Shown: positions 2,779 to 30,598 of the stretch, piece by piece | How positions within the stretch are numbered: the first letter of the stretch is position 1 | How the letters are laid out: every line of letters begins with the position of its first letter | IMG/VR virus record: IMGVR_UViG_3300042731_009084 | Coordinates: 1 to 32,749 of that record | Origin: a virus | Direction: 5' to 3' (one strand) | DNA length: 32,749 nt | Position numbers and translations under genes: made by a program | Notes under the pieces: generated by a model | Told to the model about the DNA's origin: nothing | The model's input: the letters and a program-made list of their open reading frames with translations, nothing else | The model's database searches: none

Positions 2779-3489
2779 TTAAAGCAAACGTGATTCTTCT
2801 ATATCCTGATCAGGTGAAGATTGTTTACTGTTTTTTTCCCAAGTTCGTATTGCTGCTTTCCAGTCCTTCATCTTGTTCTTTCCAATCATCCAGTTTTTCG
2901 ATGTGTAGAAATCGACGAAACGTTCTGGATCAATTTCATTGTTTCGTTCTCTGCAGTATTCTGAAACTTGTTCAATAGTGGGAATTGAAAATTTTTCTTT
3001 TATATATTTTCTTTTATTCTTATCATTCTTATCATTCTTAACATTCTTGTTAATGGACAGGCCACCATCGGGAGTCGGTCGGGAGTCGGTCGGGAGTCGT
3101 ATGGGGTTTTCGTTGGGGAGTTCATAGTTGTGTGGGTTCTGGTATTTGTCGTAATTACAAATAGTTATGAGGTTTCCCCTTGGGGTTTTCGTAGTGGTTA
3201 TCATAGAGAGGCTTCGTAACTTCTTCATAGCATTCTTCATAACTTCTTCGTTGTATCGCTCAAAACGGTACCCTATTTGCCATTTTAGACCTTCTCTCAT
3301 ATCCTTTATTGTCCTAAAGCATTGACCTCTTTTGGTAGTATAACCATGAATTTCAACGTCTTTATGATTGGCTTCTCTCAATAACCAGTCCCATAATTCA
3401 CGTACAACAGGAGAGCATATGGATATTTCTGACTCTTGTATGCACCGTGCTTTTATATAATATCCACCTTCAATCATACATTGCCTCAA
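2779..3489 (-). CDS. Phage replication initiator / helicase loader (winged-helix plus DnaD-like tail)
   Basis: 236 aa. Residues about 45-115 have the winged-helix layout of phage replisome organisers: a helix pair, then KLRSLSMITTTKTPRGN and ITICNYDKYQNP. A variable linker (about 120-165) is followed by a C-terminal domain, IPTIEQVSEYCRERNN to DWKAAIRTWEKN, typical of phage replication proteins that recruit DnaB. The next gene is a DnaB helicase, fitting that role. The start is uncertain: a TTG at 3489 has GAGAGGAGC just upstream, while an ATG at 3477 has a weaker GAGG. The linker is encoded by DNA carrying three 11-bp repeats beside an AT-rich 9-bp repeat tract, a possible origin. It is transcribed leftward, divergently from the plus-strand operon. 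Confidence 0.8.
   Translation of the reverse strand: MRQCMIEGGYYIKARCIQESEISICSPVVRELWDWLLREANHKDVEIHGYTTKRGQCFRTIKDMREGLKWQIGYRFERYNEEVMKNAMKKLRSLSMITTTKTPRGNLITICNYDKYQNPHNYELPNENPIRLPTDSRPTPDGGLSINKNVKNDKNDKNKRKYIKEKFSIPTIEQVSEYCRERNNEIDPERFVDFYTSKNWMIGKNKMKDWKAAIRTWEKNSKQSSPDQDIEESRLL
2983..3055. repeat. AT-rich tract with 9-bp repeats (possible origin unwinding region)
   Basis: The minus strand has four imperfect tandem copies of AAGAATGAT followed by A-rich sequence, encoding a K/N-rich linker in the replication initiator. The tract is almost entirely A/T and adjoins three GC-rich 11-bp repeats. This is the layout of an iteron origin with a DNA-unwinding element. Confidence 0.45.
3069..3101. 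repeat. Three tandem 11-bp repeats inside the initiator gene (possible origin iterons)
   Basis: CGGGAGTCGGT occurs at 3069-3079 and 3080-3090. A third copy, CGGGAGTCGTA, is at 3091-3101 with 9 of 11 bases the same. Because 11 is not a multiple of 3, the repeats are read in three frames and encode unlike residues (around RLPTDSRPTPDGG). The repeat is therefore conserved as DNA, not as protein. Confidence 0.55.
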
Positions 3490-3551
3490 AAAAGCTCCTC
3501 TCGCCCGTGTGCCAGCACGGACGTAGCAGGGACGGTTAATTCCGCAAGAGC

Positions 3552-5708: not shown

Positions 5709-6413
5709 TTAATTAAACACTTTAACATAACACTGTAACTTGTTGGTGTTTATTGAATTATGATATACCCTATACTCATAAGTATGTTCGTACATGCAAC
5801 CCAATGCCGTATGTGTGAATTCATATTCAAGTGATACCTTGACGCTGCTATAAGAAGAAACTGAAATAGTATTATCGGTACTTAAATGGAATCCCTTATA
5901 CCTGATACCGAATATTATGTTCATACAAAAATTGGTTACACGATCATTCAGGATGTATGTATCGCACTTGTTTTTACCATCGTACTCTTCTGCTCTAGGA
6001 TATGAAAACCTCTGGCTTATCATACAGGCACCTACAAGGTATCTTGCATAAAGGCTTCTGTTATCAACACCTATCGATACGTACTCAAACGTTTTTGAAA
6101 GATCATACCTATCATAAGTGCTATCATATGCAGACACACTGTGTCTGCAATCGTGCTTAATACCGACACCAAGGAAATCATACCATTTCATGTATAGTCC
6201 CATGTAGTACTTGTCCTGAATAGGTTTGAAATAAACCTTGTGAGAATATTTTGAATCAGTTAGAACTCCCCCGGAAAGAGTAATCCTGTCACATATGGTT
6301 GCACTACATATCAAGTTAGTGAAATACAGTGACTCGATATCGTTTCTCAGCATATCATCGTTTATAGGGGAAATCCCTATGGTTGCCGCGAATAAAGTTG
6401 TAAGTAAATTCAT
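5709..6413 (-). CDS. Putative secreted/outer-membrane beta-barrel-like protein
   Basis: 234 aa. A short hydrophobic N-terminus (MNLLTTLFAATIGISP) could be a signal peptide. The rest alternates polar and hydrophobic/aromatic residues in strand-sized blocks: ITLSGGVL, YYMGLYMKWYDFLGVGI, FEYVSIGV, ARYLVGACM, CMNIIFGIRYKGF, SVKVSLEYEF. It ends VKVFN. Such a pattern is typical of 8- to 12-strand outer-membrane barrels, with GVGIKHDCRH resembling the periodic strands of small bacterial barrels. No family is firmly recognised. Its ATG overlaps the stop of the membrane protein upstream, so the two are co-translated. In a phage it could alter the host surface or block other phages; inference only. Confidence 0.5.
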   Translation of the reverse strand: MNLLTTLFAATIGISPINDDMLRNDIESLYFTNLICSATICDRITLSGGVLTDSKYSHKVYFKPIQDKYYMGLYMKWYDFLGVGIKHDCRHSVSAYDSTYDRYDLSKTFEYVSIGVDNRSLYARYLVGACMISQRFSYPRAEEYDGKNKCDTYILNDRVTNFCMNIIFGIRYKGFHLSTDNTISVSSYSSVKVSLEYEFTHTALGCMYEHTYEYRVYHNSINTNKLQCYVKVFN

Positions 6414-6715
6414 TTTAACTCCCTTGAAAATGTTAACGATAAACTTTCAGATGAGACACTTGAGCTCTCTTCACATGCCATTGAACTATCATCTTCATTT
6501 CGAAGTATGTGATACGATAAAATGGCTCTTTCAATTGCTTCATTTATATCACAATCTTCAAGATCACTTATGTGTCTCAGTCTCAACCATGTGCTTTTTG
6601 GCAAGTTCTTGTTTTTGAACGAATTCCACATTAATTCGTGTAGGCTAAATAGTACTATTGTAACCAAAGCAAATAAAACAAACATAACCAAAGCAAATAA
6701 AGCAAAATCAACCAT
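6410..6715 (-). CDS. Membrane-anchored small protein with RHH-like segment
   Basis: 101 aa. Residues 3-25 (FALFALVMFVLFALVTIVLF) form one transmembrane helix. The following part has STWLRLRHISDLEDCDINEA and IERAILSYHIL, which resembles the strand-helix-helix of ribbon-helix-helix proteins, though this is only a pattern match. The C-terminal 25 residues are Ser/Glu-rich (EESSSVSSESLSL). GAGG lies 5 nt before the ATG, and its TGA overlaps the next gene (ATGA). It could hold its partner, the barrel-like protein or a regulator, at the inner membrane. Function unknown. Confidence 0.55.
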   Translation of the reverse strand: MVDFALFALVMFVLFALVTIVLFSLHELMWNSFKNKNLPKSTWLRLRHISDLEDCDINEAIERAILSYHILRNEDDSSMACEESSSVSSESLSLTFSRELK

Positions 6716-24357: not shown

Positions 24358-27033
24358 CTATACTTGATATGTTAACGACCATTTACTTATTAATTCCTTA
24401 GAAGTAAAAACACTTCTTGTTTTGGTGTTTACTGGCTCCATTTTTACGAATGAAAAATATCCTTGTTTAAATTTTCTTACTGTTACACCGGCATTCGATA
24501 AAAGAAATAAACCTTTTATATCGTTCAATACCGTAGCTGCATCCGGCCAAATAGCATCTTGAGGTCTATCAGCAACATTACTCAGTTTTGGCTTTATTTT
24601 AATGGTTATTTCTGACTTATATATCCCGAAAAGGTTCATTGCCAAACTGATGGATTCTTCTTTCTCAATTTTTACATCAATTGCCGGGTATGTCGATAAT
24701 GCGTTATCAAATGCATTGATACTACCGATATCGTATGAATACCCATTTGATTGAGTTATTAATTCAATTCGATCCTTTATCTTTTCAACATAGTCATATA
24801 CCGTTGCTGTAGTCACACTATCTCCTGACTCGCTACTCTCCGAAGAATTACTGCTTTCTGATGATATTGAAATACCACTAAACGAAGAGTCGCTACTATA
24901 TGAAGATACACTATTACTTGAGCTTTCGCTCGATAAACTGCTCTCAGAGGACGAGGAATCGCTACTGTCAGACGATTCGGAGCTATCTGAACTATCACTA
25001 CTATCTGAACTTTCACTGCTCTCAGAGCTCTCTGAGGAAGTAGAAACGCTACTTTCGGATGAATCACTACTCAGGGAAGATTCGCTACTTATACTTTCTG
25101 AACTTATACTTTCCGATGAAACAGATGATTCGCTGGATTCAGAACTTTCGGATGATACTGAAGTACTGCTTTTAGAAATTGATTCACTACTATCTGAAGA
25201 CTCAGAGCTTTCACTACTCTCTGAGGATTCACTACTGATAGAAGTTGAAGAAACGCTGCTTTCCGACGATTCACTACTCTCACTTGAAATGCTGGTGCTT
25301 GATACACTGGTACTGCTTTCAGATGATTTGCTCCCGGAAAACGACGATTCACTACTATAACTGCTTTCACTCGACTCGCTGGATTCGCTGGATTCGCTTG
25401 AATCGGATGAAATACTTGTACTTGAAACACTACTCTCAGAAGACTCACTACTCTCACTGCTTTTACTCACTGAATCAGAAGAGCTACTTGCACTACTGAT
25501 ACTGGTTGAAGATACGGAAGACTCTGAAGACTCAGAAGACTCACTTGATTCGCTACTGTCTGAAGATGCTGAACTCGCAGAAATAAGGCTTTCACTGCTT
25601 TCGCTACTCTCACTGGATTCGCTACTCTCAGAGGATTTGCTTACAGATACACTACTCTCAGAAGATTCACTCGATTCACTCGATTCACTGCTCTTGCTTA
25701 CAGAGTCAGAAGAGCTACTTACAGATGATCCTGACGATTCACTGCTCTCACTCGATTCACTACTATTACTGGACTCGCTTGAATCACTGCTGGTACTTGA
25801 TATGCTTTCAGATGAGACGCTACTCTCAGACGACGCGCTACTTATTGAAGTACTGCTCTCACTCGATTCACTGCTCTCACTGCTCTCACTTGATTTACTT
25901 ACCGATTCAGAGGAACTACTATCTGACGATTCAGACGATTCAGACGATTCGCTGCTTATCGATACACTGCTCTCACTGGACTCACTACTTTCCGACGAAT
26001 CACTGCTCAGTGAAGACTCACTTGATTCGGACGACTCACTACTGATACTGGTCGACGACTCACTACTATCGGAAGATAAGCTACTTGTTGAACTCAGGCT
26101 TAATGAGGATTCAGAACTTTCTGAGGATTCGGAACTTTCGCTGCTCTCAGATGATTCAGAGGACTCTGAACTTATACTGATAGACGATTCACTACTCTCA
26201 GAAGATTCAGAAGACTCACTGGACTCTGATGATTCGGAACTCTCACTTACAGATGATTCGCTACTTTCCGAAGATAAAGAGCTCTCACTGCTTTCTGAAG
26301 ATGCTGAACTTATACTTGTTGATGAAGTACTAGATTCAGAGGATTCACTTGACTCAGACGATAAGCTACTACTTGAAGGTACATCCTCTTTGAATACAGC
26401 ATACACACCAACATATTGTGGATATGGATCCCCACCCGGATTCGAGGAAATACTAAAAGTAGCAGGAATAGGAGTAGTTGAAGAGTAACTCCTATACTCA
26501 GAAATCATATGATAATCAATTGTAGACTTCTGTATTTGTGTGAAATTCGTACCAGCTGCCGATCCGGGATCAGCAACGTATGATTCAATGTAAAATGCAA
26601 AAAGAAGAGTCCCTGCCTGTGAAGGTGTAAGGTTTGAACTCTGTATTACATCCGTTCCCGGAGAAGGCATACTACCATAAAAAAGGGTATAATCATCAAA
26701 TGGTGATGCAGCCATATCTGAGAATTCAAATATCTGCATCCTCCGGTATTGCTTCCATCCCCCAAGTGTCCACGTGACAGTATTTGCTCCACCATTACAA
26801 CTTGCGCAATACCATAATGCTATATCGGTATAGTAACCATCGTGAAAATACTCTGCTACTTTAACCCATGAGTTACCCTGAGAATCCGAAAGACTCATTG
26901 AAGAATCATTACCACCACCGGAAACTACAGCAATAAGCATGTTCCCGGCTGTGTTATTCGAAGGATACGCTAAGTCAGTAGTGGTTTGTACCCAACCATT
27001 ATTTTCATAGTTTGCTGATTGTATTAAAGCCAT
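24358..27033 (-). CDS. Adhesin-stalk-tail terminator fusion protein
   Basis: 891 aa in three parts. Residues 1-219 form a beta-sandwich-like domain (NMLIAVVSGGGNDSSMSLSD, SQGNSWVKVAEYF, NTVTWTLGGWKQYR) like carbohydrate-binding jelly-roll modules. Residues about 220-739 are a low-complexity Ser-Glu/Asp stalk built on SSES. Residues 740-891 (VYDYVEKIKDRIELITQSNG to WSLTYQV) form a compact alpha/beta domain whose size and place fit a tail terminator. The gene lies between the neck genes and the tail tube, where a terminator belongs. Ser codons mix TCN and AGY, so the repeat is kept as protein. AAAGG precedes the ATG. This would place a flexible adhesive arm at the head-tail joint. Confidence 0.7.
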   Translation of the reverse strand: MALIQSANYENNGWVQTTTDLAYPSNNTAGNMLIAVVSGGGNDSSMSLSDSQGNSWVKVAEYFHDGYYTDIALWYCASCNGGANTVTWTLGGWKQYRRMQIFEFSDMAASPFDDYTLFYGSMPSPGTDVIQSSNLTPSQAGTLLFAFYIESYVADPGSAAGTNFTQIQKSTIDYHMISEYRSYSSTTPIPATFSISSNPGGDPYPQYVGVYAVFKEDVPSSSSLSSESSESSESSTSSTSISSASSESSESSLSSESSESSVSESSESSESSESSESSESSESSISISSESSESSESSESSESSESSESSLSLSSTSSLSSDSSESSTSISSESSESSESSLSSDSSESSESSESSVSISSESSESSESSDSSSSESVSKSSESSESSESSESSTSISSASSESSVSSESISSTSSDSSESSNSSESSESSESSGSSVSSSSDSVSKSSESSESSESSESSVSVSKSSESSESSESSESSESLISASSASSDSSESSESSESSESSVSSTSISSASSSSDSVSKSSESSESSESSVSSTSISSDSSESSESSESSESSYSSESSFSGSKSSESSTSVSSTSISSESSESSESSVSSTSISSESSESSESSESSDSSESISKSSTSVSSESSESSESSVSSESISSESISSESSLSSDSSESSVSTSSESSESSESSDSSDSSDSSESSDSSDSSSSESSLSSESSSNSVSSYSSDSSFSGISISSESSNSSESSESGDSVTTATVYDYVEKIKDRIELITQSNGYSYDIGSINAFDNALSTYPAIDVKIEKEESISLAMNLFGIYKSEITIKIKPKLSNVADRPQDAIWPDAATVLNDIKGLFLLSNAGVTVRKFKQGYFSFVKMEPVNTKTRSVFTSKELISKWSLTYQV
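24817..26376 (-). repeat. SSES low-complexity coding repeat (about 520 codons)
   Basis: The minus-strand frame encodes runs of SSESSESS with scattered D, T, V, L, I and K. Synonymous Ser codons are mixed between units. The antisense strand gives long open frames of Leu/Ser/Asp that are shadows of this composition. Confidence 0.9.
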
Positions 27034-30055: not shown

Positions 30056-30598
30056 TTATACTAAAGCACTCGATTCGCTACTCGTTGAAGAGCTACTTAC
30101 CGAAGTACTACTACTACTTACAGATGTACTGCTACTACTTGTCGATTCACTTGACGTGCTTGTTGAACTTTCACTGCTGTCTGAACTCTCGCTACTTTCT
30201 GATGAAGTACTCTCTGATGAAGTGCTTGTCGAAGACTCGCTACTTTCAGAACTTTCAGAACTTTCAGAACTTGTGCTTTCAGAGCTCTCACTTGAGTCAC
30301 TACTGTTCTGGTCACCACAAACGATTGCGATATAGGTATGGGAACTAACTTCGAAGAATTCAGTTACACCGGGCATTATCGGTGCAGAGTCTTTGGTTGC
30401 AGCAATTGTACTATCACCAAAGGCGATATATACAATATTCTCAGAATATCCCATGTTTGTGATACGAACAATTCCATAGCTGTATACAGGGATTGCCTTT
30501 GATGTCCCTGTTGCATTTCGCAATGGCACGGCTTCTATTAACCTAAATTTACCGTCTTCCATTACACCTAACTGAATACTAACTGGCGCAATCCCCAT
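30056..30598 (-). CDS. Head-region protein with Ser-rich C-terminal stalk
   Basis: 180 aa. Residues 1-98 form a small beta-rich domain (MGIAPVSIQLGVMEDGKFRL, AIPVYSYGIVRITNMG, GVTEFFEVSSHTYIAIVCG). Residues 99-177 are SSES repeats (SSDSSESSESTSSESSESSE) ending SSALV, the same low-complexity composition as the 891-aa tail fusion. It lies between the GroES gene and the scaffold gene, so a decoration protein or head fibre is the best guess. AAGGAG before the ATG. Confidence 0.6.
   Translation of the reverse strand: MGIAPVSIQLGVMEDGKFRLIEAVPLRNATGTSKAIPVYSYGIVRITNMGYSENIVYIAFGDSTIAATKDSAPIMPGVTEFFEVSSHTYIAIVCGDQNSSDSSESSESTSSESSESSESSESSTSTSSESTSSESSESSDSSESSTSTSSESTSSSSTSVSSSSTSVSSSSTSSESSALV
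30059..30304 (-). repeat. SSES low-complexity coding repeat (about 80 codons)
   Basis: The same Ser/Glu/Thr composition as the long repeat at 24817-26376, in a separate gene. Codons are mixed between TCN and AGY. Confidence 0.85.

Follow-up and report, generated by a model that had tools for sequence, protein, structure and literature searches.

Does the gene for the replication initiator of this virus also carry the origin at which replication starts? The DNA analysed, hereafter the window, is IMG/VR record IMGVR_UViG_3300042731_009084, a linear fragment of 32,749 bases that cuts genes at both ends and carries no completeness estimate. A first-pass annotation had read short repeats in the linker of the initiator gene as an iteron-like origin. 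We think it highly probable, from sequence comparison, structure prediction and analogy with mapped phage systems, that this linker is a replication origin of the lambda/SPP1/TP901-1 type, which combines iterons with an unwinding element. Tandem repeats lie within the initiator gene, and an easily melted AT-rich element adjoins them, as in that type (Table 1).

Table 1. Features of the putative intragenic origin and its surroundings in the window.
Feature	Position	Strand	Details
DnaB-like replicative helicase gene	1457-2764	minus	PF03796, E 1.6e-48; phrog_19, E 1.4e-57
Initiator / DnaD-like helicase-loader gene	2779-3489	minus	from the list of open reading frames; 236 aa, TTG start
C-terminal domain, residues 165-222	2824-2997	minus	GKNKMKDWKA motif; proposed helicase-loading part
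AT-rich tract, proposed DNA unwinding element	2986-3056		58 of 71 positions A/T (82%); coding strand purine-rich
9-bp repeats within the AT-rich tract	3016-3048		Tandem Repeats Finder period 9, 3.7 copies; in frame, KND units
28-nt element AACAAGAATGTTAAGAATGATAAGAATG	3024-3051	minus	exact (one N) in 38 viral stretches
Iteron array, three tandem 11-bp repeats without spacers	3068-3100		out of frame; residues 131-141
N-terminal winged-helix domain, residues 8-123	3121-3468	minus	AlphaFold2, block means mostly 93-97; predicted repeat binder

Most of the initiator protein (residues 8-216) matches phrog_2514, annotated as a DnaD-like helicase loader (E 1.8e-18), and phrog_15768 is matched as well (E 3.8e-24). 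No Pfam family, the DnaD domain included, was matched at E 0.01; the only hit was MuDR, below threshold (E 0.033). The helicase gene lies directly downstream. Positions 1-24000 have no near relatives among known phages, and Rfam and tRNA scans of the window gave no matches. The sign of the GC skew flips at about 3.5 kb and 6 kb, the same places as the switches in gene strand. Because the sign tracks gene direction and the record is a linear fragment, skew is uninformative on the position of an origin.

The three 11-bp direct repeats reported earlier are indeed there, as TCGGGAGTCGG at 3068-3078 and 3079-3089 and TCGGGAGTCGT at 3090-3100, and Tandem Repeats Finder returns 3068-3099 at period 11 with 2.9 copies and a 100% match. 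At periods 5-40, just one tandem run in the 32.7 kb is longer than the exact period-11 run of 21; that longest run, and two of the four others listed, are in Ser-rich repeat genes. The array translates to RLPTDSRPTPD, that is, to unlike residues. When synonymous codons were shuffled within the gene, with the protein and codon counts preserved, the period-11 score of 21 compared with a mean of 5.9, and none of 200 shuffles reached 21. The array is unexplained by the protein sequence, and the earlier suggestion that it is selected as DNA stands. Its spacing is about one helical turn. The window holds no other copy of the iteron at 0 or 1 mismatch. Allowing up to 2 mismatches gives six matches, counting the three array copies, where 2.2 are expected. 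With only three copies and a GC-rich sequence, the array differs from those of most relatives.

Other tandem repeats occur in the window. Genes of the structural region (24358-27033 and 30056-30598) encode long Ser-Glu/Ser-Asp repeats such as SSESSESS from 9- and 18-bp in-frame tandem repeats, and a small gene on the minus strand (6410-6715) contains a 24-bp tandem repeat of 2.3 copies (6661-6714) that encodes a hydrophobic repeat. Just upstream of the initiator start, at 3514-3534, is a short 11-bp tandem, AGCACGGACGT, with 1.9 copies at 90%.

The tract beside the array had been called almost pure A/T. An AT-rich tract is present, and the wording was slightly strong for its composition. By nearest-neighbour energies, only three distinct 50-bp sites in the window are less stable than 2983-3032. 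The four 9-bp repeats noted within the tract are also real; in this gene their score of 21 compares with 10.2 under synonymous-codon shuffling, and 1 of 200 shuffles reached 21. Shuffling the window 100 times gives an expectation of 0 for the 28-nt element, which overlaps these repeats, also when 3 mismatches are allowed.

The predicted structure of the protein places these DNA features between two domains. Residues 124-164 have low confidence in the AlphaFold2 model and are presumably disordered; the array and most of the AT-rich tract code for this linker. The winged-helix domain on one side resembles those of CAP/CRP, RbkR and ORC2 (VIA-align, Z 8-9.7). A Foldseek search of the PDB found nothing at E 0.001 or better. 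DnaD and RepA_N structures are absent among the structure matches listed, although they may match further down. The winged helix is a common fold and by itself indicates no function. The C-terminal domain on the other side has columns that are invariant in the alignment, and is modelled as three helices with mixed confidence.

These structure matches, which are mostly to transcription factors, could also suggest that the repeats are operator sites through which the initiator tunes or represses transcription of its own gene or that of the helicase, while replication starts elsewhere. A weak promoter-like match (9/12) inside the tract, at 3053-3025 on the minus strand, points the same way; however, the region has seven promoter-like sites where 3.9 are expected, a weak excess. 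The array is about 390 bp inside the gene, away from its 5' end, and the unstable tract of the relatives is on one fixed side of it. The mapped precedents of this layout (lambda, SPP1 and TP901-1/Tuc2009), as described in the excerpts of the papers cited below, are origins. We consider operator function quite improbable, and favor an origin.

If the linker is an origin, related initiators might be expected to carry comparable arrays. We gathered 80 viral loci by protein similarity, 79 loci on bacterial or archaeal genome contigs, 5 loci with an N-terminal query and 3 from named phages. Truncated and motif-less genes were dropped (L046 and L050, without a motif-bearing ORF; L079, truncated; L088, L101, L119 and L126, with ORFs below 450 nt in the standard code) and 16 near-duplicates were collapsed, leaving 145 initiators. 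Arrays were called at a period score of at least 12 (match +1, mismatch -2). Out-of-frame arrays of period 11, 22 or 23 are present in 82 of the 145, with 59 initiators reaching the threshold at period 11, 40 at 22 and 14 at 23; other out-of-frame periods (10, 13, 14, 16, 17, 19, 20 and 25) reach it in 19. At period 11, 33 of the 67 relatives in the first locus set have an array, and none of 421 control ORFs, all taken from loci of that set, reached the threshold at period 11, 22 or 23. A second, independent set has arrays at these periods in 35/78, and 41/78 pass the synonymous-codon shuffle at 1 in 100 or better.

The arrays of the relatives are in the initiator gene, as a rule in its linker, and the repeat units are alike within one phage and different between phages. 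Their sources include Firmicutes, Bacteroidota, Deltaproteobacteria, a Vibrio phage and MAGs titled Melainabacteria, Helicobacteraceae and WOR-3. Initiators with an N-terminal domain like that of the window have an array in 59 of 79 cases (20 are without), those with other N-terminal types in 23 of 66. Comparison with relatives supports the reading of an intragenic origin made in the first-pass annotation, both through these arrays and through the tracking of repeat type with the N-terminal domain described below. Some results call for caution: 63 of the 145 fall below the threshold for an array, and the relatives closest in their N-terminal domain (L085, L086 and L088) have 12-bp repeats that are in frame, so that the out-of-frame argument is inapplicable to them. 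L088 and the window have an ACTCC core in common. The loaders of StB20-like phages and Kawika are without 11-bp arrays.

Several of these loci have unusual features. The gene of the closest N-terminal relative, L088:2986-3819, is in frame only if TGA is read as Gly (11 TGA codons), so the phage probably infects a host whose genetic code is recoded; the linker of this gene contains the 12-bp array and the same K/N tract. In L049, L054, L068, L078 and similar loci, whose N-terminal domains are of other types, the position of the K/N tract is taken by in-frame, purine-rich repeats of 12, 15 or 18 bp. These repeats encode KDRLG and DIDKD, and may be alternative unwinding elements. Three loci, L115, L117 and L118, agree in length, in matched coordinates and in their array, yet the MAGs that hold them are titled Methanosphaera, Clostridia and Methanobrevibacter; one phage seems to contaminate several MAGs.

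The tract, like the array, has the marks of a DNA element. Among the 82 genes with arrays, the 60 nt after the array contain more purine than the whole gene in 74 and more A/T in 73. A site in the most unstable 2% of the locus lies on the 3' side of the array in 56/82 (50-bp windows whose start is no more than 90 nt beyond it) and on the 5' side in 21/82. The side on which the tract lies is the same as in lambda. Codons in the tract shun C, with ATA, GTA, GAT and AAT preferred. Lys before Asn is encoded by AAG 113 times and by AAA 9 times in the tract; outside it, these genes use AAG 45 times and AAA 111 times before Asn (Fisher p 3e-29, although p-values for the tract overstate independence because the genes are related). 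The AAG bias is a property of the 45 genes that have an AAGAATG/AATAATG motif; the other 37 have no AAG bias and no bias toward purine-ending Val codons. These 37 still prefer ATA, GAT and AAT, and avoid C-ending Asn, Asp and Ile codons, and in 29 of them the 3' side of the array holds a site from the most unstable 2%. Judged by these constrained synonymous sites, the AT-rich tract is selected as DNA.

These codon choices bear on whether the linker could instead be selected only as a flexible, charged peptide, with its repeats produced by slippage. Its predicted disorder would fit such a history, as would the 9-bp repeats of the relatives, which mostly follow from the peptide (3/67 pass the shuffle). 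But selection on the peptide does not account for a period-11 array that encodes unlike residues and passes the shuffle, for synonymous codons that are biased relative to the rest of the same genes, or for a pattern missing from all the control ORFs. We regard this explanation as extremely improbable, and continue with the origin.

The shared element of the tract is found with arrays and with diverse C-terminal domains. All 38 exact matches of the 28-nt element in the viral collection are in frame and in the linkers of initiator-like genes, and in 35 an 11-, 22- or 23-bp array is at most 110 nt upstream; the exceptions are one truncated locus (L190) and two with weak arrays (L200 and L208). 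The ten proteins bearing the element that were scanned all match phrog_2514, and their C-terminal parts fall in different families (O-like, replisome organizer and DnaD-like). A related 35-nt query against named phages gave 74 records, 56 of them from Staphylococcus; among the 40 records listed, the annotated rows are mostly replication genes or DnaD-like loaders, with some "regulatory" or "hypothetical".

Following the 28-nt element, the C-terminal parts form 15 clusters (37 loci), compared with 3 for the N-terminal parts at the same cut-off. This imbalance, and the pair L178 and L196, which have the same C-terminus but different N-termini and repeats, could mean that the linker is a recombination joint whose DNA is kept similar by swapping of the flanking domains and not by origin function. 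However, the array genes without the AAGAATG/AATAATG motif mostly keep their unstable site and show the same codon avoidance, and exchange would leave the 11-bp arrays unexplained. A joint in place of an origin is highly improbable in our judgment. Domain exchange is compatible with origin function, and both can act together.

If the linker is an origin at which the initiator binds, then the sequence of the repeats should depend on the domain that reads them. Across 59 dereplicated of 68 genes with a period-11 score of at least 14, similarity of the 11-mers correlates with similarity of the N-terminal domain (Mantel rho 0.43, 0/999 permutations as high) and not with that of the C-terminal domain (rho -0.10, 904/999 permutations). 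L166 and L206 have a common N-terminus and not a common C-terminus, and 10 of their 11 repeat bases are equal. L178 and L196, with the opposite arrangement, have 6 of 11 equal, which is the random level. Seven pairs with the same C-terminus and different N-termini have a mean of 7.7 matching bases, because six of the seven represent one comparison group with moderately similar N-termini. By these comparisons, the repeat sequence follows the predicted DNA-binding N-terminal domain and not the C-terminal one. An array physically linked to the N-terminal half would give a correlation of the same sign, so binding is supported and not proven.

Intragenic origins as a kind are already known. In phage lambda, annotation and our computation show iterons and an AT-rich tract, ordered as in the window, midway along the O gene in the part encoding a protein linker (excerpts of PMC7466680), and the likeness to lambda proposed in the first-pass annotation holds for this order and for the side on which the unstable tract lies. 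In contrast, lambda has four 18-bp iterons whose starts are 20-24 bp apart, whereas the window has tandem units without spacers, and no sequence common to lambda and the window was shown. A lambda origin in the strict sense is ruled out by this difference in repeat length. In SPP1, the replisome organizer binds direct repeats in its own gene, gene 38, at oriL, next to an AT-rich unwinding element (excerpts of PMC6316719). Repeats within the initiator gene and an AT-rich element are shared with the window; SPP1 differs in that a further origin, oriR, is present and its loader, gp39, is a separate protein. The replisome organizers of TP901-1 (ORF13) and Tuc2009 (Rep2009) bind repeats in their own genes, a shown origin according to excerpts of PMC8965321. 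The TP901-1 rep gene, like the window initiator, is annotated as a DnaD-like helicase loader, but by period score its repeats have a 15-bp period and there is no 11-bp array; the 11-bp spacing is thus not required for such origins.

From these systems we can propose how the origin might work. Initiators would use their winged helix to bind the phased repeats on one face of the DNA. Once bound, they would melt the adjoining AT-rich tract and hold its exposed strand, and the C-terminal domain would recruit the phage DnaB helicase. Protein and origin would co-evolve and travel as one unit. The combination of 11-bp phasing, a conserved tract and swappable flanking domains looks like an undescribed variant: among the open-licence papers listed in literature searches, none describes the family's 11-bp pattern or the tract of 28 nt in its title or the opening of its abstract, although Weigel and Seitz 2006 and Ostergaard 2001 may cover part of it.

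We speculate, more tentatively, that a single cassette of 11-bp phased iterons and a strand-biased unwinding and loading tract has spread in phages of several bacterial phyla. Sitting at the domain junction of the initiator, it might allow exchange of iteron-binding heads and helicase-loading tails, and its T-rich strand might be a site of loading comparable to the DnaD Recognition Element. That element, in B. subtilis oriC, is a strand-biased tract with pairs of 5'-TnnT-3' on its T-rich strand, which the loader binds (excerpts of PMC10201434), and the tract here recalls it in its strand bias and in a T-rich strand with 5'-TnnT-3'. TnnT density in the tracts is 17.8 compared with 8.5 per 66 nt, but this is just 1.11-fold over composition and comes mostly from A-richness, so the likeness is a conjecture; the window protein, in addition, is without a Pfam DnaD domain.

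If the linker is an origin, the origins of many uncultured phages would be readable from the initiator gene, with no need of skew or reads. In dozens of natural variants, the repeat sequence, as a record of initiator specificity, could be paired with the DNA-binding domain. Origin melting and helicase loading of phages could then be studied on the conserved tract, a concrete element testable by synonymous changes.
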